Part shown: positions 24,028-42,208 of the stretch, piece after piece
How the letters are laid out: the number at the start of each line of letters is the position of its first letter
Numbering within the stretch: position 1 is the first letter of the stretch
From: Gordonia sp. ABSL11-1
GTDB taxonomy: Bacteria; Actinomycetota; Actinomycetes; Mycobacteriales; Mycobacteriaceae
Length of the DNA stretch: 64,000 nt
Assembly (NCBI RefSeq): GCF_030315685.1
Contig: NZ_JASXSI010000028.1
Span: forward strand, 1-64,000
Direction: 5' to 3'
Made by a program: the position numbers and the translations under genes
The notes under the pieces: model-generated
The model's database searches: none
Told to the model about the DNA's origin: nothing
What the model saw: the letters and a program-made list of their open reading frames with translations, nothing else

Positions 24028-24414
24028 ATGACCGTCGAGAGCACCGATACCGCCACACCGTTCCTGGTGACCGGCGGCGCGTGGGAGAACCTGCCCCGCA
24101 TGGCCGAGTCAGAGTATCCCGGAACCGAGGGATTCATCGGCGACGTCTACGAGAACCCCCAGGGCAGCGTCATGTGCTCCGGATACTTCGAACTGCGTCA
24201 CACCGACGCCCCCCTCTACTACGAATACGAGTACGACGAGATGAAGGTCGTTCTCGAGGGCGAGTTCCTCCTGGAGAACAAGGAGACCGGACAGACCCGG
24301 ATCGCCAAGGCCAAGGACGCGATCTTCTTCCCCAAGGGCTCGAAGATCTACTTCAGTACCCCGAGCTATGCCCTGGCGTTCTACGCCGGGCACCGCGACG
24401 CCGACCTCCTCTGA
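24028..24414 (+). CDS. Cupin-domain protein (EutQ-like)
   Basis: A 128-residue single-domain cupin resembling EutQ. The beta-barrel core reads YYEYEYDEMKVVLEGEFLLEN, then GQTRIAKAKDAIFFPKGSKIYFSTPSYALAFYAG. The usual two-histidine metal site is not present: glutamates and tyrosines occupy those positions, as in EutQ-type proteins. It is the first gene of the demethylase operon, six bases before the DmmA-like gene, with TGGAGG upstream. A role as small-molecule-binding or accessory protein for methylamine breakdown is inferred from position only. Confidence 0.75.
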   Translation: MTVESTDTATPFLVTGGAWENLPRMAESEYPGTEGFIGDVYENPQGSVMCSGYFELRHTDAPLYYEYEYDEMKVVLEGEFLLENKETGQTRIAKAKDAIFFPKGSKIYFSTPSYALAFYAGHRDADLL

Positions 24415-24420
24415 GGGGCC

Positions 24421-24975
24421 ATGTCGCAGATCGCATTCTCGAGCATCCCGACATGGGCCCGCCCCGGGGTCTCGGCCGACGACACCGAGCTGCCGCCACT
24501 GTCGGGCCGGTCGTACATCCTGCTCGGCGTCGGGGCCGCGACGGGCGACGGCCTCCGGCGATGGGTGGACGCCCTCCCCGACGAGATCGCCCTGCGGACC
24601 CTCACCTTCGACGACGCGGACTCCGCCGCCCAGGCACTGCGCGATGAGCTGTGGCGTGCGCGCGTCGGGGTCCGGCTCGTGATCGTCGCTCCTGCCGGCG
24701 CCGCTCTGGCGTTGCGCGGGGTGGCGACCTCCGCCGGGCTCGAGGATGACGAGATCCACGTGACGACGGTCGGCGCAGGGGCCATCGAGATCTTCTGTTC
24801 GCACTGCCGCGCAATCACATCCGCAGTCGCCGCGGTCGACGACATCGTCGACTGCGGCGGCTGTGACCGTCATCTGCTCGTCTATCACCACGTCTCGCGT
24901 CGAAGCGGCCGCTACCTCGGCTTCATGGTCGACGCCGAGGCGTCGCCTCCGACCGCCGGAGGTTCCCAGTCATGA
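24421..24975 (+). CDS. dmmA: DmmA-like dimethylamine monooxygenase subunit
   Basis: A 184-residue protein resembling the small DmmA subunit of bacterial dimethylamine monooxygenase. It has an alpha/beta N-terminal part (SYILLGVGAATGDGL, VRLVIVAPAG) and a C-terminal four-cysteine knuckle, Cys126-x2-Cys129 and Cys145-x2-Cys148 (FCSHC...CGGC), that could bind zinc or iron. The end (LLVYHHVSRRSGRYLGFM) is conserved in the fused copy of the same domain in the demethylase at 25958. Its stop overlaps the reductase start by four bases (ATGA), so it should be produced with the oxygenase parts. Confidence 0.75.
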   Translation: MSQIAFSSIPTWARPGVSADDTELPPLSGRSYILLGVGAATGDGLRRWVDALPDEIALRTLTFDDADSAAQALRDELWRARVGVRLVIVAPAGAALALRGVATSAGLEDDEIHVTTVGAGAIEIFCSHCRAITSAVAAVDDIVDCGGCDRHLLVYHHVSRRSGRYLGFMVDAEASPPTAGGSQS

Positions 24976-25961
24976 CAGCCACCATTCCCGGTGCACCCGT
25001 GGACGAGGCACGAACCCCGAATGTGCGGCGCACGCTCGTCGTCACCGACATCGTCGACGCCGCAACCGGAATCCGCAGTTTCACCTTCGCGGCGCCCGAT
25101 GGCTCGCTGCTGCCGGGATTCGTGCCGGGCAGTCATCTGATCGTGGGTGCCGGCGATCGCACCAATGCCTACAGTCTGACCAACGACGGTGTCGCACCGA
25201 CGACCTATCAGATCTCGGTGTTGCGCCTCGCTGACGGCAACGGCGGATCGTGCTGGATGCACGACATGCTGTCGGTGGGAGACCCGGTCGAGGTCGAGCT
25301 GCCGCGCAGCGCATTCCCACCGGCCCCGCGGGCGATGAAGCATCTGCTCGTCGCCGGCGGCATCGGGGTGACTCCCATCCTGTCCCATCTGCGGGCGGCA
25401 CATCGCTGGAACCGAGACGTCCAGCTCCTCTACACCTTCCGGCCCGGCTGCGGCGCGCACGTCGACGACGTCATCGCTCTCGCAGGTCGGCAGGCCGAAC
25501 TGTTCGTCGACCAGTCCGGGTTCACCGAGCGGCTCGCCGCAACCCTGGCCGATCAGCCGATCGGCACGCACCTGTACATGTGCGGGCCGCCCGGCATGAT
25601 CGATCATGTCGTCACGACAGCGCAGGATCTGGGATGGCCGGAGTCGCGGATTCATCTCGAGCGGTTCGGGGCGGACGCGCTCGACGCCGGGGAGCCATTC
25701 GTCGTGCGCCTCACCGAGTCGGATCTGACGCTCGACGTGCCCTCGGGAACATCGGTTCTGGAAACACTGGAGCACAACGGGATCACGGTGGCCAATCGCT
25801 GCCGCCAGGGTGTCTGTGGAGAATGCCGAATCCCCTTGTCCTCGGGCGCCGCCGATCACCGTGACCTGTACTTGACCGACGACGAGAAGTCCGCCGGCGA
25901 CGCATTCATGCCATGCGTCTCGCGGGCGGCCGCCGGCTGCATCCTGGAGGTACCCCTGTGA
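24972..25961 (+). CDS. dmmB: N-demethylase reductase (FMN/NAD and 2Fe-2S), copy 1
   Basis: A 329-residue reductase of the phthalate-dioxygenase-reductase/VanB type. In order: flavin domain (GSHLIVGAGDRTNAYSLTN), NAD domain (LLVAGGIGVTPILSHL, then YMCGPPGMID) and a C-terminal plant-type ferredoxin with Cys277, Cys282, Cys285 and Cys315 (CRQGVCGEC...C, 29 residues between the last two). It would pass electrons from NAD(P)H to the haem demethylase encoded next. The following gene begins inside its stop codon (GTGA). A second reductase at 27523 is about equally related in layout, so each oxygenase may have its own reductase. Confidence 0.88.
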   Translation: MTATIPGAPVDEARTPNVRRTLVVTDIVDAATGIRSFTFAAPDGSLLPGFVPGSHLIVGAGDRTNAYSLTNDGVAPTTYQISVLRLADGNGGSCWMHDMLSVGDPVEVELPRSAFPPAPRAMKHLLVAGGIGVTPILSHLRAAHRWNRDVQLLYTFRPGCGAHVDDVIALAGRQAELFVDQSGFTERLAATLADQPIGTHLYMCGPPGMIDHVVTTAQDLGWPESRIHLERFGADALDAGEPFVVRLTESDLTLDVPSGTSVLETLEHNGITVANRCRQGVCGECRIPLSSGAADHRDLYLTDDEKSAGDAFMPCVSRAAAGCILEVPL

Positions 25962-27523
25962 CCATCACATCGCCGCACACGCCCGATTCGGACACCGTGC
26001 CGCTCGAGCCCGAACTCGTCGCCGGCTTCCCGTTTCCCTTCGTCGACGATCATTACCGGTACAGCACCAACGTCGAGCCCGCCCATCAGCCCGTGGCGAC
26101 CGCCGCCGGGCAGTGGGGCGATCGGGTGATCGACGTCGACAGTGAGTACCGGCATGAGATCACCGAGCGTGCAGCTATTCTCGCCGACGACGACACCCGG
26201 CACGCGGTCCTCCCACACATGCGCCCTGCCATCTGGGACGCGATGGTCACGATCATGACCGAACTCGCCACCGCCTACCCCGACCGGTTCACGCTGCAGC
26301 GCGATGGAGACGAGTGGCGTTGGGAGAACTCGCCGCTGGGGATCGAGCAGGCCTTCGTCTACGGCGACGACTCGACGCTGCCCACCGATCCGCTCGACTA
26401 CATCTGCGGTCAGATCCAGGAGGACGTCGTCCTGCTCGATCAGCGTGACGGGCAGTTGTTCGCCGACGCCGGCGTGGTCACGTTCGCGGCGGACTGGAGT
26501 TTCGGGTTCGACGTCGGGATGAGCTTTCTCGAGATCCACGGACCCGTTCCCCGGGTGCGCCGCGACGGCGTGATCACCCGCGCACACGAGTTCATCAAAC
26601 GGCTGCAACCGCATCGACCGTACCGCCGTACCAACTGGACCCTGACGATCGGCCGTCGGCTCGATGTGTCGACCGAGCGGTACCCCGAGTGGGGACCGGA
26701 TCGTGAGACCATCCAACAGGTCGACGATGAGACCTTCGGGCGCCTCGTCCACCTGCGCGTGGAGGTGCAGCACCTCATCCGGCTCCCGGATTCCGGAGCT
26801 GTGATGTTCCTGATCCGCACCTACATGCTGCCGCTCGAAACACTCGCCACCATCGACCCGTGGCGGCTCCGGGCCGCAGAGGTGTTCGACGAACTGCCCG
26901 ACGACATGGCCGATTACAAGGGCGTCATCAAGTATCGGGGACGCGCCGCGCAGTGGCTCCGCGATGCCGGACCGGCCCACCCGGCCGGGAGTGCCGCTCG
27001 TGACGAACGGCCCGGCGAGGGCCTGCCGCTCTGGCCTGCAGTACCCGAGGCCGTCGATGAGTCCGGCGCCTCGTTCCTGGTCGTCGCGATCGGTGGGGAG
27101 CCGATGGTGGGGCAGGTGTCCCGCGGCTGGGTCACCGCCGCGGAGTCGATCGGTCCGACGCGGCTCGTCGTCTTGGACTCGCTGTCCTCGCCCGCCGACA
27201 AGATCGCCCTGGCCGAGGCTTTGGCGTCCACCACCACCGGTGTGCGCATCCATGTCGTCGGCGGCCAGTACGACGTCATGACCACACTGTCGACTGCCCG
27301 GGACCACGGAGCGGTCGCCGCAGAGTTGTCCGCATTCGTCGTGCACACCCGCGACCTCCCGCTGTACTGCGCCCACTGCCGGGACACCTTTCGCGTCGAC
27401 GGCATGCCCGGGGCCGTCGTCGAGTGCCCGGGATGCGCCCGACGAGTCGAGATCCACACCCATCACTCCGCCACGCGCGGAGGCTTTCTCGCCTCCGCCT
27501 CCGACACGGAGGTCGAAGAGTGA
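25958..27523 (+). CDS. dmmC: Haem-dependent oxidative N-demethylase (DUF3445) fused to a DmmA-like domain
   Basis: A 521-residue two-part protein. Residues 1-335 are a complete DUF3445 domain, the PAS-like haem domain of oxidative N-demethylases that split dimethylamine to methylamine and formaldehyde. Family pieces include FRYS/YRYS-x-N-x-EP near residue 34, WSFGFDVGMSFLEIHGPVP at about 180 and LRVEVQHLIRLPDSGAVMFLIRTYMLPL at about 267-293. After a Pro/Gly-rich linker, residues about 370-510 repeat the DmmA-like domain, with Cys471-x2-Cys474 and Cys490-x2-Cys493 and an IHTHHSATRGGFL end. The ordinary subunits are separate proteins, so this is a fusion. Start is GTG with GGAGG upstream, overlapping the reductase stop. 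Confidence 0.82.
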   Translation: MTITSPHTPDSDTVPLEPELVAGFPFPFVDDHYRYSTNVEPAHQPVATAAGQWGDRVIDVDSEYRHEITERAAILADDDTRHAVLPHMRPAIWDAMVTIMTELATAYPDRFTLQRDGDEWRWENSPLGIEQAFVYGDDSTLPTDPLDYICGQIQEDVVLLDQRDGQLFADAGVVTFAADWSFGFDVGMSFLEIHGPVPRVRRDGVITRAHEFIKRLQPHRPYRRTNWTLTIGRRLDVSTERYPEWGPDRETIQQVDDETFGRLVHLRVEVQHLIRLPDSGAVMFLIRTYMLPLETLATIDPWRLRAAEVFDELPDDMADYKGVIKYRGRAAQWLRDAGPAHPAGSAARDERPGEGLPLWPAVPEAVDESGASFLVVAIGGEPMVGQVSRGWVTAAESIGPTRLVVLDSLSSPADKIALAEALASTTTGVRIHVVGGQYDVMTTLSTARDHGAVAAELSAFVVHTRDLPLYCAHCRDTFRVDGMPGAVVECPGCARRVEIHTHHSATRGGFLASASDTEVEE

Positions 27524-28569
27524 TGCTGCTGTCCGACACGCCGCGAGCTGTGGGCGAACGATCGGTGACATCACCGGCGGATCAGCAGTCCGCCCATCGG
27601 CACCCGGGCCACCAGCACCCGGGCTACAGCACCGGTCGTCGGACGATGCGGGCCGTCGAGGTGACAGCTCTGACGGCGGAGATCAATCACGTCCGGCTGG
27701 TGTCCGCCGACGGATCAGCACTGGCGTCGTACCAACCGGGCAGTCACCTGATCGTGGAGGCGGGTGCGCATCGCAACGCCTACTCGCTCGTCGACGACGG
27801 CATCCTCCCGTCGAGTTACGGCATCTCGGTGCTCCGGCGCGGAGCGGGCGGCGGCTCGGACTGGCTGCACGACAACCTCGTCGAGGGCGGACTCCTCGAT
27901 GTCGAAGGGCCACGGTCGATGTTCGCACCGGTCTGGGATCAGCGACACGCCCTGCTGGTGGCCGGCGGGATCGGGATCACTCCGATCCTGTCGCACGCAC
28001 GATCGCTGGCCCGCCGGGGCGGAACAGCAGACATCGTGTATTCCTACCGGCCGGGTCACGCCGCCCATCTCGACGAGTTGCGTTCCCTTGCCGAGTGTTC
28101 TGATCTGACCCTGTTCGAGGTGTCCGGCGCTGATGACACGAGATGGCTGCTCGCCGAACGGTTCGGCGCTCAACCGCTGGGTACCCACGCCTATGCCTGC
28201 GGCCCTGCGGGCATGCTCGACACCTACACCGCGGTCGCGGAACTCGCCGGCTGGCCGTCGGCACGCGTGCATCTCGAACGCTTCTCCGCGCCCGAACAAG
28301 AACCGGGAGAACCGTTCTCGGTGCGTGTCGCCTCGACAGGTGCGGTGATCGACGTACCTGCCGGGGTGTCGCTGCTGCAGCGGATGCTCGATCACGGGCT
28401 CCCGGTTCCGAACCTGTGCAGACAAGGAGTGTGCGGCGAATGCCGCATCGGAATTCGTTCCGGCGACGTCGAACACCGGGACTTCGTGTTGACCGACGAG
28501 GAGCGGGCGGCCGGCGACAGCATGCTGTGCTGCGTCTCCCGCGGCGAGAACATCGAGGTGGACTTATGA
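27523..28569 (+). CDS. dmmB: N-demethylase reductase (FMN/NAD and 2Fe-2S), copy 2
   Basis: A 348-residue paralogue of the reductase at 24972 with the same three domains: flavin (GSHLIVEAGAHRNAYSLVD), NAD (LLVAGGIGITPILSHA, YACGPAGMLD) and ferredoxin with Cys299, Cys304, Cys307 and Cys337. It differs by a 35-residue N-terminal extension with a His/Pro-rich stretch (AHRHPGHQHPGY), which could be unstructured or bind metal. The ATG sits in the stop of the fusion gene (TGATG). Its stop overlaps the next demethylase (ATGA). It probably serves that second oxygenase. Confidence 0.88.
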   Translation: MLLSDTPRAVGERSVTSPADQQSAHRHPGHQHPGYSTGRRTMRAVEVTALTAEINHVRLVSADGSALASYQPGSHLIVEAGAHRNAYSLVDDGILPSSYGISVLRRGAGGGSDWLHDNLVEGGLLDVEGPRSMFAPVWDQRHALLVAGGIGITPILSHARSLARRGGTADIVYSYRPGHAAHLDELRSLAECSDLTLFEVSGADDTRWLLAERFGAQPLGTHAYACGPAGMLDTYTAVAELAGWPSARVHLERFSAPEQEPGEPFSVRVASTGAVIDVPAGVSLLQRMLDHGLPVPNLCRQGVCGECRIGIRSGDVEHRDFVLTDEERAAGDSMLCCVSRGENIEVDL

Positions 28570-29606
28570 CTATCACCACCGGACGTGTCGGCGCGACCGA
28601 CCGTGATCCCTCCGATCGCGACGCGACCGCCAGGGTCGACCACCTGGCGAATCTGCCCTGGCCCTTCCCGGATGAGCTCGAGGAGTTCCGTTACAGCGTC
28701 AACGTCGAGCCCGCGCGAATTCCCCGCGCGACCCGCGGTGGCGAATGGGGAAGGCATATCGTCGATCTCGGTGGTCGCGAGTACCCGATGATCATGGCCG
28801 AGCGCCGGCGCATCCTCGATGCTGACCCGCACCGCGTCAAGGTCCGGCCCGGAATGGAGCTCGCCTGCTGGGACCTGCTGCTCTACTACCTCCGCGACCT
28901 CGCACTGAGCAATCCCGGCACCATGCACCTCACCGAGTACGGAGATGCCCGATTCCACTGGCGGAATGATCTTCTCGGCACCGATCAGTACTTCGTGCTG
29001 GGTGTGGACGACTCGGTGCCGAATGGTCCGCTCGACTTCCTCGCCCGCGAGGTCCCCGACGATCTGCTCCTGGTGATCGAACGTGATGGACACCTGTACT
29101 TCGATGCCGGCGCCGTGACCTTCGCGGCCGCCTGGTCGGTGTCCTTCGATGTCGGTATGGACATGTACGAGATCCACGCCCCGGTACCGGGTCTCACCCG
29201 GCAGGGGATCGTGGCCCGGGCCGAACATTTCCTCCGGCGCCTTCCCGCCGATCAGGTGTACCGCCGGGTCAACTGGACACTGTCCGCATCGGACTCGCCG
29301 AAACTCGATGTGAGCCTGGAGGAGCTGCCGGAATGGGCCGACGACATCCCGCAGATGCTGCGGGACAGAGACTTCGATCGGGTACACCTGCGCATCGAGC
29401 TCGAGCACTTCATCCGGCTCCCGATGTCCGGGGCCGTCACCTTCAACATCCGCACCTTCATGGCCTCCCTCGCGGAGATCCGGCGGATACCGGAATGGGC
29501 CGGTCAGCTCGCCACCGTCATCGAGACCCTCAGCGAGCCCATCGCCGCCTACAAAGGCTTTCTCGAGTACCGCGACGACGTCGTGGCACATCTTCGTGGA
29601 CAGTGA
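28566..29606 (+). CDS. dmmC: Haem-dependent oxidative N-demethylase (DUF3445), stand-alone copy
   Basis: A 346-residue DUF3445 protein of ordinary length, paralogous to the first 335 residues of the fusion at 25958. Matching blocks are FRYSVNVEPARIPRATRGGEWG, FAAAWSVSFDVGMDMYEIHAPVPGL, YRRVNWTLS and HLRIELEHFIRLPMSGAVTFNIRTFM. It should form an N-demethylase with the reductase encoded just before it. Two paralogous oxygenases in one operon may attack different methylated amines, or act as unequal subunits of one enzyme. The ammonium transporter follows after 61 bases. Confidence 0.85.
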   Translation: MTITTGRVGATDRDPSDRDATARVDHLANLPWPFPDELEEFRYSVNVEPARIPRATRGGEWGRHIVDLGGREYPMIMAERRRILDADPHRVKVRPGMELACWDLLLYYLRDLALSNPGTMHLTEYGDARFHWRNDLLGTDQYFVLGVDDSVPNGPLDFLAREVPDDLLLVIERDGHLYFDAGAVTFAAAWSVSFDVGMDMYEIHAPVPGLTRQGIVARAEHFLRRLPADQVYRRVNWTLSASDSPKLDVSLEELPEWADDIPQMLRDRDFDRVHLRIELEHFIRLPMSGAVTFNIRTFMASLAEIRRIPEWAGQLATVIETLSEPIAAYKGFLEYRDDVVAHLRGQ

Positions 29607-29667
29607 CGTCCGCCTCGCTTTTTCTCTCCGATTTGTCTGTCCCACAACATTACCCGAGGATTCTAGA

Positions 29668-31017
29668 ATGGAACCGATACTCGCCGCCAACGCCGACCTG
29701 GCGTGGATGCTCGCGGCCTTTGTCTTCGTGCTGCTGATGTTCCCCGGCCTTGCCCTGTATTACGGGGGCATGGTCGGGTCACGCAATGTCCTGAACATGA
29801 TGACCATGGTGATGGTCACCCTGGGCATCACGAGCGTGCTCTATGTGCTCTACGGCTATGGCCTCGTGTCGGGGCCGTCGCTGAACGATTGGGGCATCAT
29901 CGGTAATCCGATGGACTACATAGGCCTCGGATCGAACATGGCCGACGACGGCTCGGGCAGCACGCAGGTGCTGTACTTCGCCGCCTGGTTCATCCTCTTC
30001 GCGGCGATCACCATCGCCATTGTCGCCAGCGGTGCGGCGGGCCGGATGAAGTTCTCGGCCTGGTTGGTGTTCGCGCCCATCTGGCTGACGCTGGTGTACT
30101 TCCCGGTTGCACACTGGGTGTTCGCCGCCGACGGTGACGGTATCAGTGGTGGGTTCCTGCTGAACGACATCGGCATTCACGATTACGCCGGTGGCACGGC
30201 CGTCCACATGAACTCCGGTGTGGCGGCCCTGGCCCTCGCCATGGTGCTCGGGGCGCGCCGCAAGAGGATGGAGCGCCCGAACAATGTCCCGATGGCGTTG
30301 CTCGGCGGTGGCATCCTCTGGTTCGGCTGGTTCGGATTCAACGGCAGCTGCGCCCTCGGGGCCAGCTTCCTGACCCAGGTCGTCATCCTCAACACCCTGC
30401 TTGCCGGGAGCGCCGGCATGATCGGCTTCTGCCTCATCGAGAAGTGGCGCGAGGGTCACGCCACCTCACTCGGCCTGATCACCGGTGCCGTCGCAGGACT
30501 CGTCGGAATCACCCCGGCCGCCAACACGATGACGCCGCTCGGTGCGCTGGGCGTCGGCCTGCTCGCGGCCGCCGTCGTCGCGCTTCTGCTCAGTTTCAAG
30601 AGCAAGTTCACGGTCGACGACACCCTGGACGCGTTCGCCGTGCACGGCGTCGGCGGCATCGTCGGCACCCTGTGCATCGTGCTGTTCGCCTCGGAGTCGG
30701 CTCCCGCCGGAGTGCAGGGCATCCTGTTCGGCGGTGACATCGGCATCCTGTGGAGGGAGCTCGCGGGCATCGTCATCACCTGCACCTACTCCTTCGTCGT
30801 GACCTGGCTGATCGCCAAGGGCCTCGACAAGGTGATGACCCTGCGTGTCGACGAGGAGACCGAGATGAACGGCCTCGACTCGACCGTTCATGCGGAGACC
30901 GCTTACGAGATCCCGGCAGCCGGTGTGGGACATGCACCGGGTCTGGTCGCGACCGTTCCGCCGAAGGTCGGTCCGGCGAATGCGGGAGCGGCGGAGCCGG
31001 TGCCGGCATCCACCTGA
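29668..31017 (+). CDS. amt: Ammonium transporter Amt
   Basis: A 449-residue membrane channel of the Amt/Mep/Rh family with about 11 helices. Family blocks are MFPGLALYYGGMVGSRNVLNMM, the twin-His pore histidine in YAGGTAVHMNSGVAALALA, GILWFGWFGFNGSCALG and FAVHGVGGIVGTLC. The extreme C-terminus is a proline/alanine-rich tail. The start at 29668 follows GAGGA and a short A/T-rich leader. Placed last in the demethylase operon, it may take up ammonium or methylammonium, which Amt channels also conduct. Methylamine supply is an inference from context. Confidence 0.92.
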   Translation: MEPILAANADLAWMLAAFVFVLLMFPGLALYYGGMVGSRNVLNMMTMVMVTLGITSVLYVLYGYGLVSGPSLNDWGIIGNPMDYIGLGSNMADDGSGSTQVLYFAAWFILFAAITIAIVASGAAGRMKFSAWLVFAPIWLTLVYFPVAHWVFAADGDGISGGFLLNDIGIHDYAGGTAVHMNSGVAALALAMVLGARRKRMERPNNVPMALLGGGILWFGWFGFNGSCALGASFLTQVVILNTLLAGSAGMIGFCLIEKWREGHATSLGLITGAVAGLVGITPAANTMTPLGALGVGLLAAAVVALLLSFKSKFTVDDTLDAFAVHGVGGIVGTLCIVLFASESAPAGVQGILFGGDIGILWRELAGIVITCTYSFVVTWLIAKGLDKVMTLRVDEETEMNGLDSTVHAETAYEIPAAGVGHAPGLVATVPPKVGPANAGAAEPVPAST

Positions 31018-31072: not shown

Positions 31073-31666
31073 TCACGGTGGGCCCTCGCCCGCGTCTGCC
31101 GAACTCAACGCCCGAAACAGCGGCACCACACAGACGCCGACGATCTCGGCGATCCCCGCGTCATCGAGCGACCGCCGTAACAGTGTCTCGTTCCGCAACA
31201 GGTCCATGGGCAGTGCGAGTGCGCGTGTCGGGATCGGGGATGGACCGAGTTCGCCTCTCGCACGGGCGTGTTCGACGATCGGGCCGACCACATCGGCCGA
31301 CCGTCGGAAGATGACCTCCCGCATAGCCTGGGCAGTCGTCTCGTCGGCACCGGAGAGGATGCCGAGGATCATGCCGCGGCCACGGTGCATGAAGAGCTCG
31401 TTGCCGTCGCGCAGCAGCTGCGTGAGGTCGTCGACGAGCGAGCCGGTGTCGGGGGTGTGCAGCGGGGAGGAGTCAGCGCCGACCATCGAGGCGAACACCA
31501 TCGAGGCTTTGGTCGGCCACCGCCGGTACAAGACGGCCTTACTGGTCTCCGCGGCTGCGGCCACACCCTCGAAGGTCAGCTGGGCGTAGCCGTGTGCCAT
31601 CAGTTCGCTCTGCACGGCGGCGTGGATCGCGGCCTCGAGATCGGCGCCCCGGCGTCGTGTCGCCAC
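31073..31666 (-). CDS. TetR-family transcriptional regulator
   Basis: A 197-residue repressor with the TetR helix-turn-helix YAQLTFEGVAAAAETSKAVLYRRWPTKASMV and a C-terminal ligand domain of the common actinobacterial type (TetR_C_33-like). Start taken at the second GTG (VATRRRG) because AGGAG lies five bases upstream; GTG at 31672 is also possible. It is divergent from the ABC-2-like membrane gene, and two identical operators fill the 84 bases between them, so it almost certainly represses that gene and itself. Confidence 0.9.
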   Translation of the reverse strand: MATRRRGADLEAAIHAAVQSELMAHGYAQLTFEGVAAAAETSKAVLYRRWPTKASMVFASMVGADSSPLHTPDTGSLVDDLTQLLRDGNELFMHRGRGMILGILSGADETTAQAMREVIFRRSADVVGPIVEHARARGELGPSPIPTRALALPMDLLRNETLLRRSLDDAGIAEIVGVCVVPLFRALSSADAGEGPP

Positions 31667-31681
31667 CCTCACTCCTCGTAA

Positions 31682-31736
31682 GAAACGTTGCGTTTCCTAG
31701 AACGATAGCCTACCGTTTTAGGAAACGTACCGTTTC
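31682..31736. promoter_or_regulatory. Twin TetR operators GAAACG-N3-CGTTTC
   Basis: GAAACG-TTG-CGTTTC (31682-31696) and GAAACG-TAC-CGTTTC (31722-31736) are perfect inverted repeats with identical arms, 40 bases apart centre to centre, in the promoter region shared by the TetR gene and the membrane gene. Two dimers on nearly the same face of the helix are expected. Confidence 0.8.
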
Positions 31737-31749
31737 TTAAGGACTTGAC

Positions 31750-32781
31750 ATGGCAATGCTGTCCCCGGCAGGCGGAACCGCCGCCCGTCCGAATCCACGC
31801 ACCGTCATCGGACTCGTCGTGGGTGTCGCCGCGCTGCTGGCTGCGATGGTCACCGCGTTCGCGCTCCCCGCGGCCAACTCCGGACCGCACGACGTCCCGA
31901 TCGGGGTGGTCGCGCCGGCGGCGCAGGCCGATCGTCTGAGTCAACAGCTCGACGGCTTCGATGTCACCCGCTACGACAGTTCCGAGGCCGCACGCGAGGC
32001 GATCGAGCACCGCGACATCTACGGGTCGCTGATCGTCGAGGGCCGAAACGTCGACGCGATGGTCGCTTCGGCGGCGAGTCCCACTGTGGCCACGGCCATC
32101 TCGGCGATCGGAAGTCGCGTGTCGCAGACTGCCGGTGGGACGTCGCAGACCGTCGACATCCGATCATTCCCACCAGACGATCCCAAGGGCGCCGGGCTCG
32201 CCGCCGGTGCATTGCCGCTCGCGCTGGGTGGCTGGATCAGCGCGATGGTCATCATGCTGCTGATCCATACCCCGGGTGCCCGGGTGCTCACCGCTCTCGG
32301 CGTCTCGGTGGTGGGCGGATTGGTCCTCGTGGCCACCCTGACCTACGTCATCGGCACGTTTGACGGCAACTACTGGGTGACCAGTCTTGCCGCGATGCTG
32401 GGTATCGCCGCAACGTGTTTCGCGGTTCTGGGATTACGTGAGCTCCTCGGCGGGGCCGGATTGGGTATCGCAGCGATCCTGTTGATCTTCCTCGGGAACC
32501 CGTTGTCGGGGTTGGCGAGTGCACCTGAGATGATCCCCACGCCCTGGGGCCGCATCGGTCAGCTCCTGCCACCCGGTGCCACCGGCACCATGCTGCGAGA
32601 CGTCGCATTCTTCAACGGAAACGGGGCCCTTCACGCGATCGTGGTGCTGGTGTGCTGGCTGGTCGGCGGCCTCGCGTTGTACGTGCTGGGCGTCTGGCGG
32701 AACCGGCGTTCCCACGAGGTCGACGAGGACGAGATCCACATCGGACGGCATGCGGTCGACGACGGTGTCGTGACCTCGTAG
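31750..32781 (+). CDS. ABC-2-type/YhgE-like membrane protein
   Basis: A 343-residue membrane protein: one N-terminal helix (VIGLVVGVAALLAAMVTAFALP), an outer domain of about 130 residues (PIGVVAPAAQADRLSQQLDG...DPKGAGLAAGALPLALGGW), then five or six helices and a charged acidic tail. This plan is shared by ABC-2-type permeases and YhgE/Pip-like efflux proteins. There is no ATP-binding partner gene next to it. The adjacent TetR regulator with twin operators suggests an inducible export role, for example against a toxic compound. Substrate unknown. Confidence 0.7.
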   Translation: MAMLSPAGGTAARPNPRTVIGLVVGVAALLAAMVTAFALPAANSGPHDVPIGVVAPAAQADRLSQQLDGFDVTRYDSSEAAREAIEHRDIYGSLIVEGRNVDAMVASAASPTVATAISAIGSRVSQTAGGTSQTVDIRSFPPDDPKGAGLAAGALPLALGGWISAMVIMLLIHTPGARVLTALGVSVVGGLVLVATLTYVIGTFDGNYWVTSLAAMLGIAATCFAVLGLRELLGGAGLGIAAILLIFLGNPLSGLASAPEMIPTPWGRIGQLLPPGATGTMLRDVAFFNGNGALHAIVVLVCWLVGGLALYVLGVWRNRRSHEVDEDEIHIGRHAVDDGVVTS

Positions 32782-32808
32782 CCTTCGATGCCTGCGTGGA
32801 TCCGTGGA

Positions 32809-33207
32809 TCACTGTGCGGGTGACCATGTGGGGTAGCCGACGTGGACGCATCCCTTCAACAGCCGGCGGTCGTAAGCGAGCACACCGGTGAGTTGCTCGC
32901 CGATGTGGGCGGCCGATGCGAGGTGGATGGCGTCCAGTGAACGCAGGGTCGATGGACCGATAGTCTCGGCGCGCGTAATGACGGCCTCGGTGATGGGGAT
33001 GATGTCGATGCCGTCGAGCACTTTGCTCGCGCGATCCACCAGTCCGCTGCTTCCGTCGCGAACTGCGGTGCGCATCAGTTCGACTCGTGTCAACGCGCTG
33101 GTCACGAGGTTCTCATCGGCATGCTGCCGTAGCCAGGCGATGAGTGCAGATGTCTCGGCCTCGGACACGACGAGTTTGACGATGGCAGAGGTGTCCGCGT
33201 AGATCAT
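32809..33207 (-). CDS. vapC: PIN-domain toxin (VapC)
   Basis: A 132-residue PIN-domain ribonuclease, the toxin of a VapBC pair. The acidic residues of the fold are visible: Asp5 in MIYADTSA, Glu in LTRVELMR, Asp in SLDAIHLASA and Asp in LAYDRRLLKG. VapC toxins cut tRNA or rRNA when free of antitoxin. Its ATG overlaps the antitoxin stop by four bases (ATGA). The gene is the second of a two-gene leftward operon. Confidence 0.9.
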   Translation of the reverse strand: MIYADTSAIVKLVVSEAETSALIAWLRQHADENLVTSALTRVELMRTAVRDGSSGLVDRASKVLDGIDIIPITEAVITRAETIGPSTLRSLDAIHLASAAHIGEQLTGVLAYDRRLLKGCVHVGYPTWSPAQ

Positions 33208-33476
33208 CGTTCGTCGCGCACGCGGTCGAGCTCCGACGTCAGGTCTCCGACGGGCAGGTCCTCGACCGCGATCATGTGGAGAGAGCCGGGGCTCCGCGCG
33301 GGCGTGAGAACACCGGTCCTGATCAAGGCCTCGCGTCCGGAGGTCTCGGTAGAGACCGGCACGAGTCGTGCCACCGTCTTGCCGCGATTGGTGATCGAGA
33401 TCTCTTCGCCCGCTTCGACCTGCGCGAGGTAGCGAGAGGCATGCTGGCGAAGCTCGCGGACACCGATGGTCGTCAT
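33204..33476 (-). CDS. vapB: Phd/YefM-type antitoxin (VapB)
   Basis: A 90-residue prevent-host-death family antitoxin. The N-terminal DNA-binding fold MTTIGVRELRQHASRYLAQVEAGEEISITNRGKTVARLVP is characteristic; the remaining 40 residues would wrap the PIN toxin. ATG at 33476 is used because the family begins with this segment. A 19-base perfect operator lies just upstream, fitting the usual autorepression by the toxin-antitoxin complex. Confidence 0.9.
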   Translation of the reverse strand: MTTIGVRELRQHASRYLAQVEAGEEISITNRGKTVARLVPVSTETSGREALIRTGVLTPARSPGSLHMIAVEDLPVGDLTSELDRVRDER

Positions 33477-33486
33477 GGAGGCGAGC

Positions 33487-33505
33487 GTAGCACACGATGT
33501 GCTAC
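33487..33505. promoter_or_regulatory. vapBC operator palindrome
   Basis: GTAGCACA-CGA-TGTGCTAC, perfect 8-base arms around three bases, begins 11 bases upstream of the antitoxin ATG. Its position fits autoregulation of the toxin-antitoxin operon. Confidence 0.75.
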
Positions 33506-33517
33506 TCTTGCTCGTGT

Positions 33518-33534
33518 GGCTCAGTGGCTGAGCC
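33518..33534 (-). terminator. Short hairpin after the FAD oxidase gene
   Basis: GGCTCA-GTGGC-TGAGCC forms a six-pair stem immediately after the stop of the leftward FAD oxidase gene and before the vapBC operator. A weak terminator is likely. Confidence 0.5.
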
Positions 33535-34728
33535 TCATCGCATCTCGCCTGCCCCCTCATACGGATTCAGGCTCAGCAGGAGATCGCCCTCGGCGAATCG
33601 CGAGTACCGGAAGTCATGCGGATCGACGTTCTTCAGTGTCGTCGAACCGCTGAGCAGGAGGTCGGCGACGAGTTTGCCGACGGCGGGGGAGATCTTGAAT
33701 CCGTGACCGGAGAAACCGGTCGCCAGGAACAGGCCGTCGACCGGTGACGGCCCGATGATCGGGTTGTAGTCGGGGGTGACGTCGTAGGCGCCGACGTAGC
33801 TGCTCGTGATGCGCGGGTCGGGCATGTCCGGCAGGCGATGACCCATCTTCATGATGATCTTGTCGATGGTGCTCTCATCGGCGCGGTTGATGTAGTTGTC
33901 GGGGTCGATGTACTGCGGCACAGCATGATCGGAGTTGCCCACCAGCAGTTCGCCGTTGGGCTCGCGGCACACGTACGAGAGTCCGGCCAGATCGGACAGG
34001 ACGGGAACCACCGGGGTCGGCTCGCCCTGGTCGATCAGTACGAGCTGCGCCCGCTGGGCCCGGACGTCCACGGGCACGCCGACGGGTTCGGTCAGCGCGG
34101 GTGTCCACGGACCTGCCGCGACGATCACGGTCTCCGCATGGATGGTGCTGCCGTCGGCGAGTTCGGCACCGATGACCCGATCGTCGTCGCCCTGCAGGAG
34201 CTTCGTGACAGTGGTCGACTGGCGGACCTTCACGCCGAGCTTGCGGGCGGCGGCGGCGAAGGCCATGCCCGCCATGTAGGCCTCACCGCGACCACCGAGT
34301 GGTTCGTAGGCGAACGCGGCGAAGTCATCGAGGTGCAGACCGGGCCAGAGCTCAGTCATCTTGTCGTGGCCGATCAGCGAGACGTCGATGCCGAGGCCTT
34401 GCATCAGCTCGACGTTGGCGTTCAACGGGGCCACGTTGTTCTCGCCGACGCCGACGACATAGCCACACTGCTGGAACGCCATGTCGTCGCCGAAGAGTTC
34501 GGTCGCGCGGGTGAAGACGTCGACGCCGTACCACGACATCGCGGCGAGCGACGGATTGCCATAGTGGCAGCGCACGACGCCGCTGGACTTTCCGGTCATG
34601 CCGGAGCACAGAGTGTCGCGTTCGACGACGAGGACGTCGGTCTCGCCCTGATCGGCGAGCGACCAGGCGATCGCGAGTCCTTCGAGTCCGCCGCCGACGA
34701 TGAGAAAGCGGGTGGTGGTGGAGGTCAT
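33535..34728 (-). CDS. FAD-dependent amine oxidase, sarcosine-oxidase-beta-like
   Basis: A 397-residue DAO-family flavoenzyme related to the beta subunit of sarcosine oxidase and dimethylglycine oxidase. The FAD-binding dinucleotide fold is at the N-terminus (RFLIVGGGLEGLAIAWSLADQG), the GxSSGVVRCHYGNP segment follows, and FLATGFSGHGFKISPAVGKLVADLL is the typical C-terminal signature. Such enzymes remove N-methyl groups from secondary amino acids. It ends an operon with HutD and an M20 hydrolase, next to the N-methylglutamate synthase genes, making N-methylglutamate a candidate substrate. The canonical four-subunit MgdABCD is absent here. Sarcosine or another N-alkyl amino acid is the alternative. 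Confidence 0.8.
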   Translation of the reverse strand: MTSTTTRFLIVGGGLEGLAIAWSLADQGETDVLVVERDTLCSGMTGKSSGVVRCHYGNPSLAAMSWYGVDVFTRATELFGDDMAFQQCGYVVGVGENNVAPLNANVELMQGLGIDVSLIGHDKMTELWPGLHLDDFAAFAYEPLGGRGEAYMAGMAFAAAARKLGVKVRQSTTVTKLLQGDDDRVIGAELADGSTIHAETVIVAAGPWTPALTEPVGVPVDVRAQRAQLVLIDQGEPTPVVPVLSDLAGLSYVCREPNGELLVGNSDHAVPQYIDPDNYINRADESTIDKIIMKMGHRLPDMPDPRITSSYVGAYDVTPDYNPIIGPSPVDGLFLATGFSGHGFKISPAVGKLVADLLLSGSTTLKNVDPHDFRYSRFAEGDLLLSLNPYEGAGEMR

Positions 34729-34779
34729 GTCGGGTTCACTTTCGGTGGATGAGGATGGGAGAGGTTTTGCGGAGCAGCG

Positions 34780-36030: not shown

Positions 36031-36641
36031 GGCAAGCTCTCCTCTGTAGACGGGTGGATGTGGGCGACGGCGACGGTCGCGGCTCCGGTGACGTCGCGCG
36101 GCGAACCTTCGAGAAGCAGGCTGTCCCAGCGCCGTAATTCCTTGCCGTCGATCTCGAGGGAACCGGCGAGCACGGTCAACACGGCGTCGTCGTCGGGGCC
36201 GATCGTGTGAGCGCCGCGCAGATTGCGCAGCGTGAGGGTGCCGTCGCAGGTCTCGCGGCGGGCCATCAGGTTGAGCAATCGCGTGGGGCGTCGAGCCGGG
36301 GTGGCGCGGACGTCGTCCTCGCCGTCGAAGCCGATGCGGTCGAGCAACGCGAGGGTGTGGGTCGTCCCGTTGACGGTGAGGTCGACCGGGTCGTCACCGA
36401 CGACTACCGCAGTCCGCCGCATCCCCGGGAACAGCGAGAACGCGCAGTCGGTCTCGATGTCCGCGAGGCTCAGCGTCCAGTCCGGGTGGTCGGTGCTGCG
36501 CGAGGCGATTGTTCCCGAGGCGATGCGCCGGGTGACACCCGCACCGTTGCGCCACGGCGTCGGCGGGAGCGTCGACGCGCGAACGACCGGTCCGGTCGGT
36601 GGAGCCATCGGGTGGTCGAGGGGAATGTGATCGATCGTCAT
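36027..36641 (-). CDS. hutD: HutD family protein
   Basis: A 204-residue cupin-fold HutD protein: TPWRNGAGVTRRIASG near residue 28, then FSLFPGMRRTAVVVG and FDGEDDVRATP. In pseudomonads HutD accompanies histidine utilisation and is thought to tune it, but its biochemistry is not known. No hut genes lie here. It is first in a three-gene leftward operon with an M20 hydrolase and an FAD oxidase, divergent from the LysR gene. Confidence 0.85.
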   Translation of the reverse strand: MTIDHIPLDHPMAPPTGPVVRASTLPPTPWRNGAGVTRRIASGTIASRSTDHPDWTLSLADIETDCAFSLFPGMRRTAVVVGDDPVDLTVNGTTHTLALLDRIGFDGEDDVRATPARRPTRLLNLMARRETCDGTLTLRNLRGAHTIGPDDDAVLTVLAGSLEIDGKELRRWDSLLLEGSPRDVTGAATVAVAHIHPSTEESLP

Positions 36642-37841: not shown

Positions 37842-39188
37842 ATGACCGACCGCAACGAACTCGCCGACCTGTGTGCGGCCTCGGGGACGAAGTTCATCCT
37901 GGCCCTGTTCGTCGACCTCCGCGGCAAGCCCTGCGCCAAGCTCGTGCCCGTCGAGGCCGTCGACGAATTGGCGACCGACGGAGTCGGTTTCGCCGGCTAC
38001 GCGGTGGGTGCCATCGGCCAGGAGCCGAAGGACCCCGACCTCATTGCCATCCCCGACATCGCGTCCTTCACACCGATCCCGTTCATCAAGGAGGGGCTGG
38101 CCGTCGTCCACTGCGATCCCCACGTCGAGGGCAAGCCGTGGCCGTTCGCGCCGCGCAACATCCTCAAGTCGCTCGTCGCGCAGGCCGCCGACGCCGGCTT
38201 CGAGCCGTGGGTCGGCGCCGAGGTGGAGTACTTCCTGCTCAAGCGCGCTGCCGACGGGTCACTCGTGACCGCCGACGATGCCGACGATTCGAATCAGCCC
38301 TGCTACGACGTTCGCGGCCTGACCCGCATGTACGACCATCTCACCGCGGTCTCCACGGCGATGAACCAGCTCGGGTGGAGTAACTACGCGAACGACCACG
38401 AGGACGGCAACGGTCAGTTCGAACAGAACTTCAAATATGCCGAGGCCCTCACCACCGCCGATCGCGTCATCACGCTGCGTTACCTGCTCTCGACGATGGC
38501 GGCCGAGCGCGGCATGGTCGCCACGTTCATGCCCAAGCCGTTCGCCGAGCGCACCGGCTCCGGTCTGCACTTCCATCTGTCACTGACCTCCGGCGGTACC
38601 CCCGTGTTCCCCGACGCCGCAGATGAGGATGAGCGTGGTCTCGGATTGTCGCCGACCGCATACGGATTCGTCGGCGGCATCCTCGAACATTCGTGTGCCC
38701 TGCAGGCTGTGATGGCCCCGACGGTCAACTCCTACAAGCGAACCGGCGCCACCGCGACACGTTCTGGCGCTTCGTGGGCTCCTCGACGTCCCACCTACGG
38801 CGGCAACGACCGGACTCATTTCGTGCGGGTGCCCGATGAGCAGCGCGTCGAACTCCGTGGCGGAGATGGTTCCGCCAACCCGTATCTGGCGATCGCGGCC
38901 GCGCTCGGCGCCGGGCTCGACGGCGTGAAGCGCAGTCTCGACCCGGGCGTGATCGGTGGATGTCCCGAGCACATCGAGTCGCTACCGCTCACGCTGCTCC
39001 ACGCGGTGGAGGCGCTCGACGCGGATCCGGTCATCTCCGGCGTCCTGAACGCCGCAGTGCCCGAGGCCGGGTCCGGCGATGCCGGACTCGTCTCCGACTA
39101 CTTCTCTCGACTCAAGCGCGAAGAGTTCTTCGCGTGGCACTCCGCGGTCTCCCCCTGGGAGATCGAGAACTACCTGACCGCCTTCTAA
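37842..39188 (+). CDS. gmaS: Type III glutamine synthetase-like, probable gamma-glutamylmethylamide synthetase
   Basis: A 448-residue member of the glutamine synthetase superfamily in the GlnT/GmaS branch. It opens with FILALFVDLRGKPCAKLVPVE, the branch signature, has the Mg-binding VGAEVEYFLL and GLHFHLSL segments, and ends with RTGATATRSGASWAPRRPTYGGNDRTHFVRVP and RVELRGGDGSANPYLAIAAALGAGLDG. GmaS ligates methylamine to glutamate using ATP, giving gamma-glutamylmethylamide. The order gmaS-mgsA-mgsB-mgsC downstream supports this over a plain ammonia ligase, although sequence alone does not separate the two. GGAGAACC precedes the ATG and an operator-like repeat lies upstream. Confidence 0.8.
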   Translation: MTDRNELADLCAASGTKFILALFVDLRGKPCAKLVPVEAVDELATDGVGFAGYAVGAIGQEPKDPDLIAIPDIASFTPIPFIKEGLAVVHCDPHVEGKPWPFAPRNILKSLVAQAADAGFEPWVGAEVEYFLLKRAADGSLVTADDADDSNQPCYDVRGLTRMYDHLTAVSTAMNQLGWSNYANDHEDGNGQFEQNFKYAEALTTADRVITLRYLLSTMAAERGMVATFMPKPFAERTGSGLHFHLSLTSGGTPVFPDAADEDERGLGLSPTAYGFVGGILEHSCALQAVMAPTVNSYKRTGATATRSGASWAPRRPTYGGNDRTHFVRVPDEQRVELRGGDGSANPYLAIAAALGAGLDGVKRSLDPGVIGGCPEHIESLPLTLLHAVEALDADPVISGVLNAAVPEAGSGDAGLVSDYFSRLKREEFFAWHSAVSPWEIENYLTAF

Positions 39189-39240: not shown

Positions 39241-40146
39241 ATGTGCGGAATCGTCGGGTTGCACCTGCGCAACCCTGAACTCCATCCTCGCCTCGGTGAG
39301 CTTCTCGGCCAGATGCTGGGCGAGATGCAGGACCGAGGCGCCGATTCGGCCGGCATCGCCATCTACGGCGATCCGACCTGGTCACCTGCCGGGCAGGGTT
39401 GCGTGTCGCTGCTCGAAACCGGCATCGGTGCAGATGAACTGGACGCCGCGACCATCGCCGTCGGCACAGCACTGGGAAGCGAGGTCACGGGTCGGCTCGT
39501 CGACGCCACACTCGTGCTCAGCGCCGAGGTCGACTCGGAGACCCTGCTCGCGACGGCCACCACGGTGTACCCGGAGGCGCTCGTAGCCGGCTTCGGCGCC
39601 GACATGACGGTCCTCAAGGGCGTCGGTGCGCCGCGTGATCTGGTGCGGGCGTGGGGATTGTCGAACGCGAGCGGCTGGCAGGGTGTCGGACACACCCGTA
39701 TGGCCACCGAGTCTGCCGTCACCCCATCGGGCGCACACCCGTTCGCCGTCGGACCCGAGCAGTGCCTGGTGCACAACGGCTCGTTCTCCAATCACGCGAC
39801 GATCCGCCGCGAACTGCGCGCCGAGGGCGTGTCGTTCGACAGCGAGAACGACACGGAGGTGGGAGCGCGCTTCGTCGCGCACCAGCTCGCGCAGGGTAAG
39901 GATGTCGAGACCGCGCTGAAAGAGGTGTGCGCCACCTTCGACGGTTTCTACACCCTGCTGGTGTCGAATCACGATTCGTTCGCGGTGGTTCGTGACGCCA
40001 TCGCCTGCAAGCCGGCGGTCATCGCCGAGACCGACGACTGGGTCGCCATGGCCAGCGAGTACCGCGCACTGGCCCACCTGCCCGGCGTCGCCGAAGCCCG
40101 AATCTGGGAACCCGAGCCGGAGGTGGTCTACGCATGGACACGCTGA
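39241..40146 (+). CDS. mgsA: N-methylglutamate synthase subunit A (glutamine amidotransferase class II, GlxB-like)
   Basis: A 301-residue class II glutamine amidotransferase. Cys2 (MCGIVGLHL) is the nucleophile; other landmarks are QDRGADSAGIAIYG, GVGHTRMATESAVTP and LVHNGSFSNH. It would hydrolyse the amide of gamma-glutamylmethylamide and pass methylamine to the synthase subunit. Compared with glutamate synthase it is a free domain, as in GlxB/MgsA. It overlaps the next gene by 13 bases, so the subunits are co-translated. Confidence 0.85.
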   Translation: MCGIVGLHLRNPELHPRLGELLGQMLGEMQDRGADSAGIAIYGDPTWSPAGQGCVSLLETGIGADELDAATIAVGTALGSEVTGRLVDATLVLSAEVDSETLLATATTVYPEALVAGFGADMTVLKGVGAPRDLVRAWGLSNASGWQGVGHTRMATESAVTPSGAHPFAVGPEQCLVHNGSFSNHATIRRELRAEGVSFDSENDTEVGARFVAHQLAQGKDVETALKEVCATFDGFYTLLVSNHDSFAVVRDAIACKPAVIAETDDWVAMASEYRALAHLPGVAEARIWEPEPEVVYAWTR

Positions 40147-40829
40147 ACCCCAACCACACGTTCGACCTCGCCACCACGTCTCTGCGAGACGTCAACGGGG
40201 CCTTGCACAGTGACGACGTGTCCGGCGAGATCGTGATCGACAACCCGTCCGGTGCGCACAGCGTCGCCGCCGGGGTCAACGCGCCGGTCAAGATCACCGT
40301 CAACGGACATGTCGGCTACTACGCCGCGGGGATGAACCAGCAGGCCGAGATCACCATCAACGGCAACGCGGGAACGGGTGTCGCCGAGAACATGATGAGC
40401 GGCACCGTCGTCGTCAAGGGCAACGCCTCACAGTCGGCAGGCGCGACCGCGCATGGTGGTCTCCTGGTCGTCGAAGGCGACGCAGCGGCGCGCTGTGGGA
40501 TCTCGATGAAGGGTGTCGACATCGTCGTCGGCGGCGACGTCGGCCACAACAGCGCATTCATGGCGCAGGCCGGTCGTCTCGTCATCCGTGGCAATGCCGG
40601 TGACGGTCTGGGCGATTCGATCTACGAGACACGGATCTACGTGCGCGGTGACGTCGGCTCCCTCGGTGCCGACTGCATCGCGAAGCCGATGCGTGCCGAG
40701 CACCTCGACGAACTGGCCGGCCTGCTCAAGGCCGCCGGGTTCAAGGACGACGACCCGACGGACTACACGCGATACGGGTCGGCCCGCGAGCTCTACCACT
40801 TCCACGTCGACAACACGTCTGCCTACTGA
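40134..40829 (+). CDS. mgsB: N-methylglutamate synthase subunit B (GlxC-like beta-helix)
   Basis: A 231-residue homologue of the C-terminal beta-helix domain of glutamate synthase. The Gly-rich rungs are clear: HVGYYAAGMNQQAEITINGNAGTGVAENM, then GDAAARCGISMKGVDIVVGGDVGH and GNAGDGLGDSIYETRIYVRGDVG. In MgsB/GlxC proteins it is a separate structural subunit. It starts inside the end of mgsA and is followed 17 bases on by mgsC. Confidence 0.85.
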   Translation: MDTLNPNHTFDLATTSLRDVNGALHSDDVSGEIVIDNPSGAHSVAAGVNAPVKITVNGHVGYYAAGMNQQAEITINGNAGTGVAENMMSGTVVVKGNASQSAGATAHGGLLVVEGDAAARCGISMKGVDIVVGGDVGHNSAFMAQAGRLVIRGNAGDGLGDSIYETRIYVRGDVGSLGADCIAKPMRAEHLDELAGLLKAAGFKDDDPTDYTRYGSARELYHFHVDNTSAY

Positions 40830-40846
40830 GGACCTCGGAGAACACC

Positions 40847-42208
40847 ATGACCGACAATCTGTCCGTCGAACACCGCGGGCTCCGCGAGTCCGCCACCTTC
40901 GACCGCACCACCATCGCCGCCATCCAGCGGGCCGCCGACACCGGGATCTACGACATCCGCGGCTGGGGAGCCAAGCGCAAGTTGCCGCATTTCGACGATC
41001 TGCTCTTCCTGGGCGCCTCGATGTCGCGGTATCCATTGGAGGGATACCGCGAGCGGTGCGACACCGACGTCGTGCTCGGCGCGCGGAATGCCAAGTTCCC
41101 CTTGCACCTCGACACCCCGGTCACCATTGCCGGGATGAGCTTCGGCGCGTTGTCGGCGGGCGCCAAGGAGGCGTTGGGTCGCGGCGCGTCGGAGGTGGGG
41201 ACGTCGACGACCACCGGTGACGGCGGGATGACCCCGGAGGAGCGTGGTCAGTCGAAGAACCTGGTCTACCAGTATCTTCCGTCGCGTTACGGGATGAATC
41301 CCGACGACCTGCGTCGCGCGGACGCGATCGAGATCGTGCTGGGACAGGGGGCCAAACCCGGCGGCGGTGGAATGCTGCTGGGCCAGAAGATCTCCGAGCG
41401 TGTCGCGTCGATGCGCACTCTGCCGGAGGGGATCGATCAGCGCAGCGCCTGCCGGCATCCCGACTGGACCGGGCCCGACGATCTCGCGATCAAGATCAAC
41501 GAACTGCGTGAGATCACCGACTGGGAGAAGCCCATCTACGTCAAGGTCGGGGCGACCCGCACCTACTACGACGTGAAGCTGGCGGTGCACTCGGGCGCCG
41601 ACGTCGTCGTCGTCGACGGCATGCAGGGCGGCACCGCTGCGACCCAGGACGTGTTCATCGAACATGTCGGCATCCCGACGCTCGCTGCGATCCCGCAGGC
41701 GGTGCAGGCCCTGCAGGAGTTGGGAGTTCACCGACGCGGGGCGAGCGGAGCGGCGGGGGATTCTGGAGTCCAGCTCATCGTGTCGGGTGGCATCCGTAAC
41801 GGTGCCGACGTCGCCAAGGCCATGGCCCTCGGTGCCGACGCCGTCGCGATCGGTACCGCCGCGCTGATCGCCCTGGGCGACAATGATCCACGATACGCAG
41901 CCGAGTACGAGGAACTGGGTTCGGCGGCGGGCTTCTACGACGACTTCCACGAGGGTCGGGACCCCGCGGGTATCACCACACAGGACCCGGAGCTCTCTGC
42001 GCGGTTCGATCCGGTCGAGGGCGGCAGTCGGCTTGCGAACTTCCTGCGTGTGATGACGATGGAGGCCCAGACCATCGCGCGTGCCTGCGGCAAGGCGCAT
42101 CTGCAGCACCTCGAGCCGGAGGACCTCGTGGCGATCACCATCGAGGCGTCGGCGATGGCCCGCGTACCGCTGGCCGGCACGAGTTGGATTCCAGGGCAGG
42201 GGTTCTGA
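40847..42208 (+). CDS. mgsC: N-methylglutamate synthase subunit C (FMN glutamate synthase domain, GlxD-like)
   Basis: A 453-residue FMN-binding central domain of glutamate synthase. Landmarks are PVTIAGMSFGALSAGAKEALGRGASEVGTSTTTGDGGM, EIVLGQGAKPGGGGMLLG, KVGATRTYYDVKLAVHSGADVVVVDGMQGGTAATQ and LIVSGGIRNGADVAKAMALGADAVAIGTAALIALG. It would reduce the imine of 2-oxoglutarate and methylamine to N-methylglutamate. A glycine/alanine-rich stretch, RRGASGAAGDSG, appears inserted just before the LIVSGGIR strand; its DNA is a run of GCGGGGCGAGCGGAGC-like sequence. Last gene of the gmaS-mgsABC operon. Confidence 0.85.
   Translation: MTDNLSVEHRGLRESATFDRTTIAAIQRAADTGIYDIRGWGAKRKLPHFDDLLFLGASMSRYPLEGYRERCDTDVVLGARNAKFPLHLDTPVTIAGMSFGALSAGAKEALGRGASEVGTSTTTGDGGMTPEERGQSKNLVYQYLPSRYGMNPDDLRRADAIEIVLGQGAKPGGGGMLLGQKISERVASMRTLPEGIDQRSACRHPDWTGPDDLAIKINELREITDWEKPIYVKVGATRTYYDVKLAVHSGADVVVVDGMQGGTAATQDVFIEHVGIPTLAAIPQAVQALQELGVHRRGASGAAGDSGVQLIVSGGIRNGADVAKAMALGADAVAIGTAALIALGDNDPRYAAEYEELGSAAGFYDDFHEGRDPAGITTQDPELSARFDPVEGGSRLANFLRVMTMEAQTIARACGKAHLQHLEPEDLVAITIEASAMARVPLAGTSWIPGQGF

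Follow-up and report, generated by a model that had tools for sequence, protein, structure and literature searches.

The operon described here lies at positions 24028-31017 on the + strand of a 64,000-nucleotide stretch of Gordonia sp. ABSL11-1 (contig NZ_JASXSI010000028.1), the whole of which we call the window, and consists of seven genes in the order cupin, DmmA, DmmB, a fusion of DmmC with DmmA (DmmC=DmmA), DmmB, DmmC and Amt. An original prediction, made from the DNA letters, had proposed this order and had named the families as DUF3445 (the heme N-demethylase family, HODM), DmmA, reductase, cupin and Amt; the order is as claimed, and our Pfam and NCBIfam profile searches of the window bear out all of these calls.

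The first gene encodes a small EutQ-like cupin (24028..24414; PF06249, 1.7e-12) and is followed, after a gap of 6 bases, by DmmA of module I (24421..24975; NF041259, 8.8e-32, 109 bits against a cut-off of 60), which combines a reductase-like domain with a four-cysteine ribbon. DmmB of module I (24972..25961) is a flavin/2Fe-2S reductase with NAD and 2Fe-2S domains (PF00111, PF00175, PF22290). The fourth gene (25958..27523) is the fusion of DmmC type I with DmmA of module II, its HODM alpha match (PF11927, 1.7e-67, 228 bits, cut-off 25) spanning 26120-26941 and its DmmA part (NF041259, 1.6e-25, 89 bits) about 27053-27520. Then come DmmB of module II (27520..28569, with an alternative ATG start at 27523; PF00111, PF00175), which falls on the module II side of the DmmB tree, and the HODM alpha-like DmmC type II (28566..29606; PF11927, 6.2e-57, 194 bits, cut-off 25). 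After 61 further bases the operon ends with the ammonium/methylammonium transporter gene Amt (29668..31017; TIGR00836, 400 bits). Overlaps of 1-4 bases had been predicted; they are present, at 4 bases each, at the four junctions A1/B1, B1/C1, C1=A2/B2 and B2/C2, and absent at the two gaps just mentioned. The two reductase-oxygenase pairs of that prediction are real, and what has to be added is that DmmA is doubled as well, with the second DmmA fused to the first DmmC, so that by its gene families the operon holds two complete dmmABC modules.

The succession DmmA-DmmB-DmmC is also that of the dmmDABC operons of Ruegeria pomeroyi, Paracoccus aminophilus and Rhizobium. According to the respective papers, dmmABC of R. 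pomeroyi converts dimethylamine to methylamine in E. coli, where DmmD is dispensable for activity (PMC5520151), and deletion of any dmm gene abolishes growth of P. aminophilus on dimethylamine (PMC4543880). As described there, dmmDABC is a single module with a folate-binding DmmD (PMC5520151, PMC4543880), whereas the window has two modules and a cupin in first place. No DmmD (folate-binding GcvT) was found among the operon genes of the window, and the best matches in the genome, at 31% and 27%, are distant relatives. Our literature search of open PMC full text brought up no paper that describes either the doubling or the fusion.

A doubled and fused operon

Among 59 genomes of the window's genus, HODM is present in 33, of which 31 have two genes, and because the gene order recurs in these 31 of 33 it is not a product of chance; in all 31 doubled loci, Amt is the last gene of the operon. 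In a family-wide sample, Gordonia included, HODM was found in 59 of 251 genomes. The architecture was read from 136 non-redundant loci, all picked for holding HODM. The search of gene neighbourhoods that had been suggested with the original prediction did recover the doubled arrangement: 31 loci are doubled and fused, 18 are doubled with separate genes (plus the truncated L178), seven read A-B-C-A-C with one reductase, and most of the remainder are single. The doubling had been called unusual, which has to be qualified: in this genus it is the rule in genomes bearing dmm, and it recurs, with separate genes, in Nocardioides, Prauserella, Millisia, a Mycobacterium and others. All fused loci belong to the window's genus in the Genome Taxonomy Database (GTDB), where the fusion is present in 31 of 31 doubled loci and was read in no other locus; Gordonia jinhuaensis (L076/L175), a Gordonia by its NCBI name but with another genus code, is doubled with separate genes. 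C sequences of loci in the window's genus are identical to those of named Gordonia records. On a plasmid of Mycobacterium methanotrophicum (NZ_CP097321.1; L043, L206), about 24 kb with transposase genes separate a type I module from a type II-like C match and a DmmA; neither C match has an annotated gene under it.

The AlphaFold model of the fusion protein, with a mean predicted local distance difference test (pLDDT) score of 88.2, predicts two well-folded parts and a disordered linker between them (residues 342-353, below 50). In this model the first part resembles the HODM structure 5LTE (target template-modelling score, TMt, 0.89; E 4.5e-35) and also matches the dimethylamine complex 5LTH, and the DmmC domain of module I is 47% identical to 5LTE over 324 columns. 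For C1 the HODM fold is thus assigned by model to 5LTE, and for C2 by sequence only; scored against 5LTE, C1 reaches 320.1 bits and C2 224.9 bits, type I being the closer. The DmmC domain of the fusion has both PF11927 and the fold in common with 5LTE, 5LTH and 5LTI. HODM is represented by one sequence among the PDB matches, whereas the window pairs two ancient types, one of them fused to DmmA. DmmA alone was modelled with a pLDDT of 91.8, and a structure search with it gave nothing at 0.001 or better, the best match being a weak one to phthalate dioxygenase reductase (2pia, E 6.6e-3). The four cysteines of DmmA are kept in 115 of 115 A rows.

Two ancient types of DmmC

In a tree of 120 C proteins, C2 of the window falls within a clade of 42 rows, which we call type II, with a support of 100 in the Shimodaira-Hasegawa-like approximate likelihood ratio test (SH-aLRT), and the split between types I and II is a long branch of 1.09 changes per column. 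This tree includes 12 of the genus's 31 doubled loci and selected single loci, with C rows of fewer than 200 residues left out, for which reason L091 and L119 have one row each; the remaining 19 doubled loci were assigned to types by their best phmmer scores only. Both C rows are in the tree for 38 doubled loci, and each of these (38/38) has one type I and one type II, in the order I-II in 29 and II-I in nine. A recent tandem duplication was considered and rejected, as the two types are deep separate branches and are found in both orders. The 59 HODM-bearing genomes of the family sample comprise 25 with both types, 33 without type II, and one, G080, with type II only.

The trees of DmmA and DmmB show a split that matches that of DmmC, in which the rows assigned to module II by position lie on one side in 38 of 39 cases for A and in 30 of 31 for B. 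Both exceptions are effects of numbering: L178_A1 is the sole A of a truncated locus, and L150_B2 is shifted by an extra reductase upstream. Furthermore, the ratio of nonsynonymous to synonymous changes (dN/dS, Nei-Gojobori) of C2 is 0.05-0.14 over five comparisons and is below that of C1 in each. Judged from alignments and trees, type II split off long ago, is clearly different from type I and evolves under purifying selection. With it the heme N-demethylase family gains a second branch, as yet uncharacterised, which in typed loci is nearly always paired with the known one.

In the type II locus L119, a short type I C match (13741-13917) lies between B and A and may be what remains of a C-I that was lost. 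At L077 (5353-14514, in G064), a highly divergent HODM module in the order B-A-C, basal to the type II clade, adjoins a Rieske oxygenase, a spermidine/putrescine-like ABC transporter and an aminotransferase, which hints at a larger amine substrate.

Possible roles of the two modules

We consider it fairly probable that the operon encodes two different, ancient dmmABC modules, of which module I would act on dimethylamine and module II would be a second N-demethylase for another small N-methyl amine, tethered to the first by the fusion. HODM enzymes remove methyl groups oxidatively at a heme that receives its electrons from a reductase. In each module DmmB would then, as we infer, pass electrons from NAD(P)H via flavin and 2Fe-2S to the heme of DmmC; together with O2, DmmC would take a methyl group off a small amine as formaldehyde, with DmmA as a further subunit presumably required in vivo. 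Module I would convert dimethylamine to methylamine, from which GmaS and MgsABC would make N-methylglutamate, and module II would demethylate another small N-methyl amine, for which trimethylamine is the leading candidate. In the window's genus, the polypeptide joining DmmC-I to DmmA-II would tether both modules.

So do the two modules form one enzyme or two? The original prediction had left this open, and an arrangement in which the two types of DmmC serve as unequal alpha subunits within a single hetero-oligomer, held by the fusion and with one or both of them active, would agree with the invariable pairing of I with II in the typed doubled loci, with a fusion that spans the module border in all 31 doubled loci of the genus, and with the single reductase that serves two oxygenases in seven loci. 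However, more than half of the HODM-bearing genomes of the family sample (33/59) have no type II, and in 18 doubled loci the genes stand separately. Moreover, in Gordonia sp. 'Campus' (L045/L145) the operon reads cupin-A-B-C-Amt, module II being absent, and gmaS-mgs is present; the stretch before its Amt matches the end of C2 and its 3' spacer in a relative at 80% identity over 112 columns. Read from this alignment, 'Campus' has lost module II, retaining a relic of the 3' end of C2 together with a whole module I, which favours two enzymes over an obligate hetero-oligomer. Because the subtypes of A, B and C go together and 'Campus' lost only module II, separate enzymes appear to fit better, and we regard a single hetero-oligomer as unlikely. 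The fusion would nonetheless imply that the modules still sit close together in the window's genus, and, with the loci that have one reductase, makes their physical association possible. 'Campus' also offers a matched natural comparison, in that module II is all that it lost.

If there are two enzymes, they could still be kinetic isozymes for dimethylamine, for example forms of high and low affinity, as would suit their common fold family, shared operon and shared core columns. The depth of the split and the many fixed differences specific to each type argue against this, as does the fact that type II occurs without type I in a single typed genome, and we consider isozymes quite unlikely.

Several observations weigh against two self-sufficient enzymes with module II on a substrate of its own. 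In L081, L111 and L119, where type II stands alone, A is of type II but B falls on the opposite side of its tree, and since, in addition, the seven loci with two A-C pairs have one B, module II is, as far as these trees go, not always self-contained; G080 has type II alone, the sole such case among typed genomes, and in the window gmaS lies 6.8 kb beyond Amt, with other genes between. Then there are the residues of type II itself. Our reference set consisted of the 71 columns that are fixed in at least 72 of the 73 type I rows and show the same residue in 5LTE and in two proteobacterial rows; of these columns type II, counted with L096, L078, L200 and L077 left out, keeps 50 in both of its subgroups and 53 in the subgroup of the window's C2. 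Changed in every type II row counted are Tyr36, Asp61, Gln154, Asp161, Gln162, Tyr242, Arg249 and Gln268 (5LTE chain numbering, here and below), and His87 and Asp179 are changed in the window's subgroup. Such changes fit an altered substrate, but they would equally fit lost activity.

Module II could accordingly be a non-catalytic paralogue that is decaying or has a structural or regulatory role. In favour of this are the 21 of 71 otherwise fixed columns that are not kept in both subgroups, in 11 of which the window's subgroup has lost the old residue entirely, and the fact that module II can be lost (L045) or broken (L091). A decaying gene is, however, hard to reconcile with the low dN/dS of C2, or with a module whose own reductase and DmmA are kept in 31 of the genus's 33 genomes with dmm. 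In addition, C2 retains His194 (in HxPVP), the only histidine common to both types and three outside rows, which probably binds the heme. We therefore hold a module II without catalysis to be improbable, and prefer the reading with two N-demethylases.

What, then, might module II demethylate? A lead comes from the flavin-dependent trimethylamine monooxygenase Tmm, searched for with a query from Rhizobium lentis whose best PDB matches are bacterial flavin-containing monooxygenases (FMOs), one of them named trimethylamine monooxygenase. A match to this query is present in 11 of the 59 genomes of the genus and in none of the 33 that have dmm. Across 117 genomes, it is present in two of 58 with types I and II versus 25 of 59 with type I only (raw Fisher p 3.4e-7), a count from which L168 and L188 (whose C sequence is that of the G085 locus) and G080 (type II only, no Tmm) were left out. 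The family search scored the best few candidates per genome, and the E limit was 1e-20 for the genus search and 1e-80 for the other searches. The contrast has a p of 0.067 in the family sample without Gordonia and a one-sided p of 0.07 when stratified within genera, with G080 counted as bearing type II. On the tree, where L096, L117 and L200 were left out at this step only, 8 independent contrasts could be drawn, of which an average of 0.8 point the same way and 1.9 the opposite way, which is not significant; near relatives drive much of the raw contrast.

The rarity of Tmm in genomes with both types thus suggests that module II may replace Tmm, with trimethylamine as a lead; as the tree-corrected test is not significant, we do not claim it as a shown substrate. 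It is a tentative and on balance doubtful idea that module II is a heme trimethylamine demethylase, such that module II and then module I would make dimethylamine and methylamine, bypassing both flavin Tmm and trimethylamine N-oxide demethylase, and the fusion would link these successive steps. If it were true that type II takes trimethylamine, soil Actinomycetota would possess a flavin-free route for this abundant nitrogen compound. The neighbours of the lone type II loci indicated no clear substrate. In class-wide HODM and Tmm searches, G455 (contig 24, 5086-7326) shows a Tmm match and an untyped HODM match that lie on opposite strands and end 93 bases apart.

Downstream methylamine genes and the cupin

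Beyond the operon, the window carries gmaS, mgsA, mgsB and mgsC side by side at 37842-42208 on the + strand, which the original prediction did not include. They encode a GmaS-like member of the type III glutamine synthetase family (37842..39188; TIGR03105, 600 bits, cut-off 469.6), an MgsA-like glutamine amidotransferase domain (39241..40146; PF13522), an MgsB-like GXGXG protein (40134..40829; PF01493, 2.5e-10) and an MgsC-like glutamate synthase domain (40847..42208; PF01645, 4.5e-87). The dmm genes of Rhizobium lentis likewise lie beside a type III glutamine synthetase and a flavin mononucleotide (FMN) glutamate synthase. Within the genus, a GmaS match below 1e-90 is present in 32 of 33 dmm-bearing genomes versus one of 26 without dmm (counted by hand), the exception, G042, having a 735-base GmaS match beside the operon. 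This co-occurrence across 59 genomes ties the operon to methylamine use, and its role in the use of methylated amines, already part of the original prediction, is strengthened by gmaS-mgsABC and can be called well supported by gene content.

In 27 of the 31 fused loci gmaS directly follows Amt, whereas the window, L050 and L056 have a block in between; the stretch of L069 ends too early to show the position of gmaS. In the window this block (31073-36641) includes TetR, an ABC-2 membrane protein, a flavin adenine dinucleotide (FAD) amine oxidoreductase, an allantoate-amidohydrolase-like M20 enzyme, HutD and, judged by eye, a small toxin-antitoxin-like pair, and parts of it are common to L050, L056 and L069. 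The FAD amine oxidoreductase (33535..34728, - strand; PF01266, 1.2e-61) is sarcosine-oxidase-beta-like and could possibly be an N-methylglutamate oxidase; 27 of the genus's 31 doubled stretches, the window among them, hold a homologue. With regard to the N-methylglutamate dehydrogenase MgdABCD, a SoxD search of the window's own genome gave no match, and the control gave no match either. A promoter scan found no site.

The cupin had been described as having no assigned part in the pathway, for which there is, however, a precedent. EutQ-like cupins near methylated-amine genes have already been reported: PMC5023230 describes them next to Tmo and Mao genes of Arthrobacter and Mycobacterium and proposes that they are involved in oxidising methylated amines. 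Those cupins are likewise small, EutQ-like and next to genes of methylated-amine oxidation, but beside Tmo and Mao, whereas the window cupin comes first in a dmm operon; the likeness is one of description. The window cupin passes the Pfam EutQ cut-off (47.8 bits against 21), is below the NCBIfam equivalog cut-off for the EutQ acetate kinase (48 bits against 193), and matches EutQ 2pyt in phmmer at 8.6e-11. It is conserved over 95 loci with a YxYxYDE motif, each named residue of which is kept in 92 of the 95, at the place where metal cupins are expected to have HxH.

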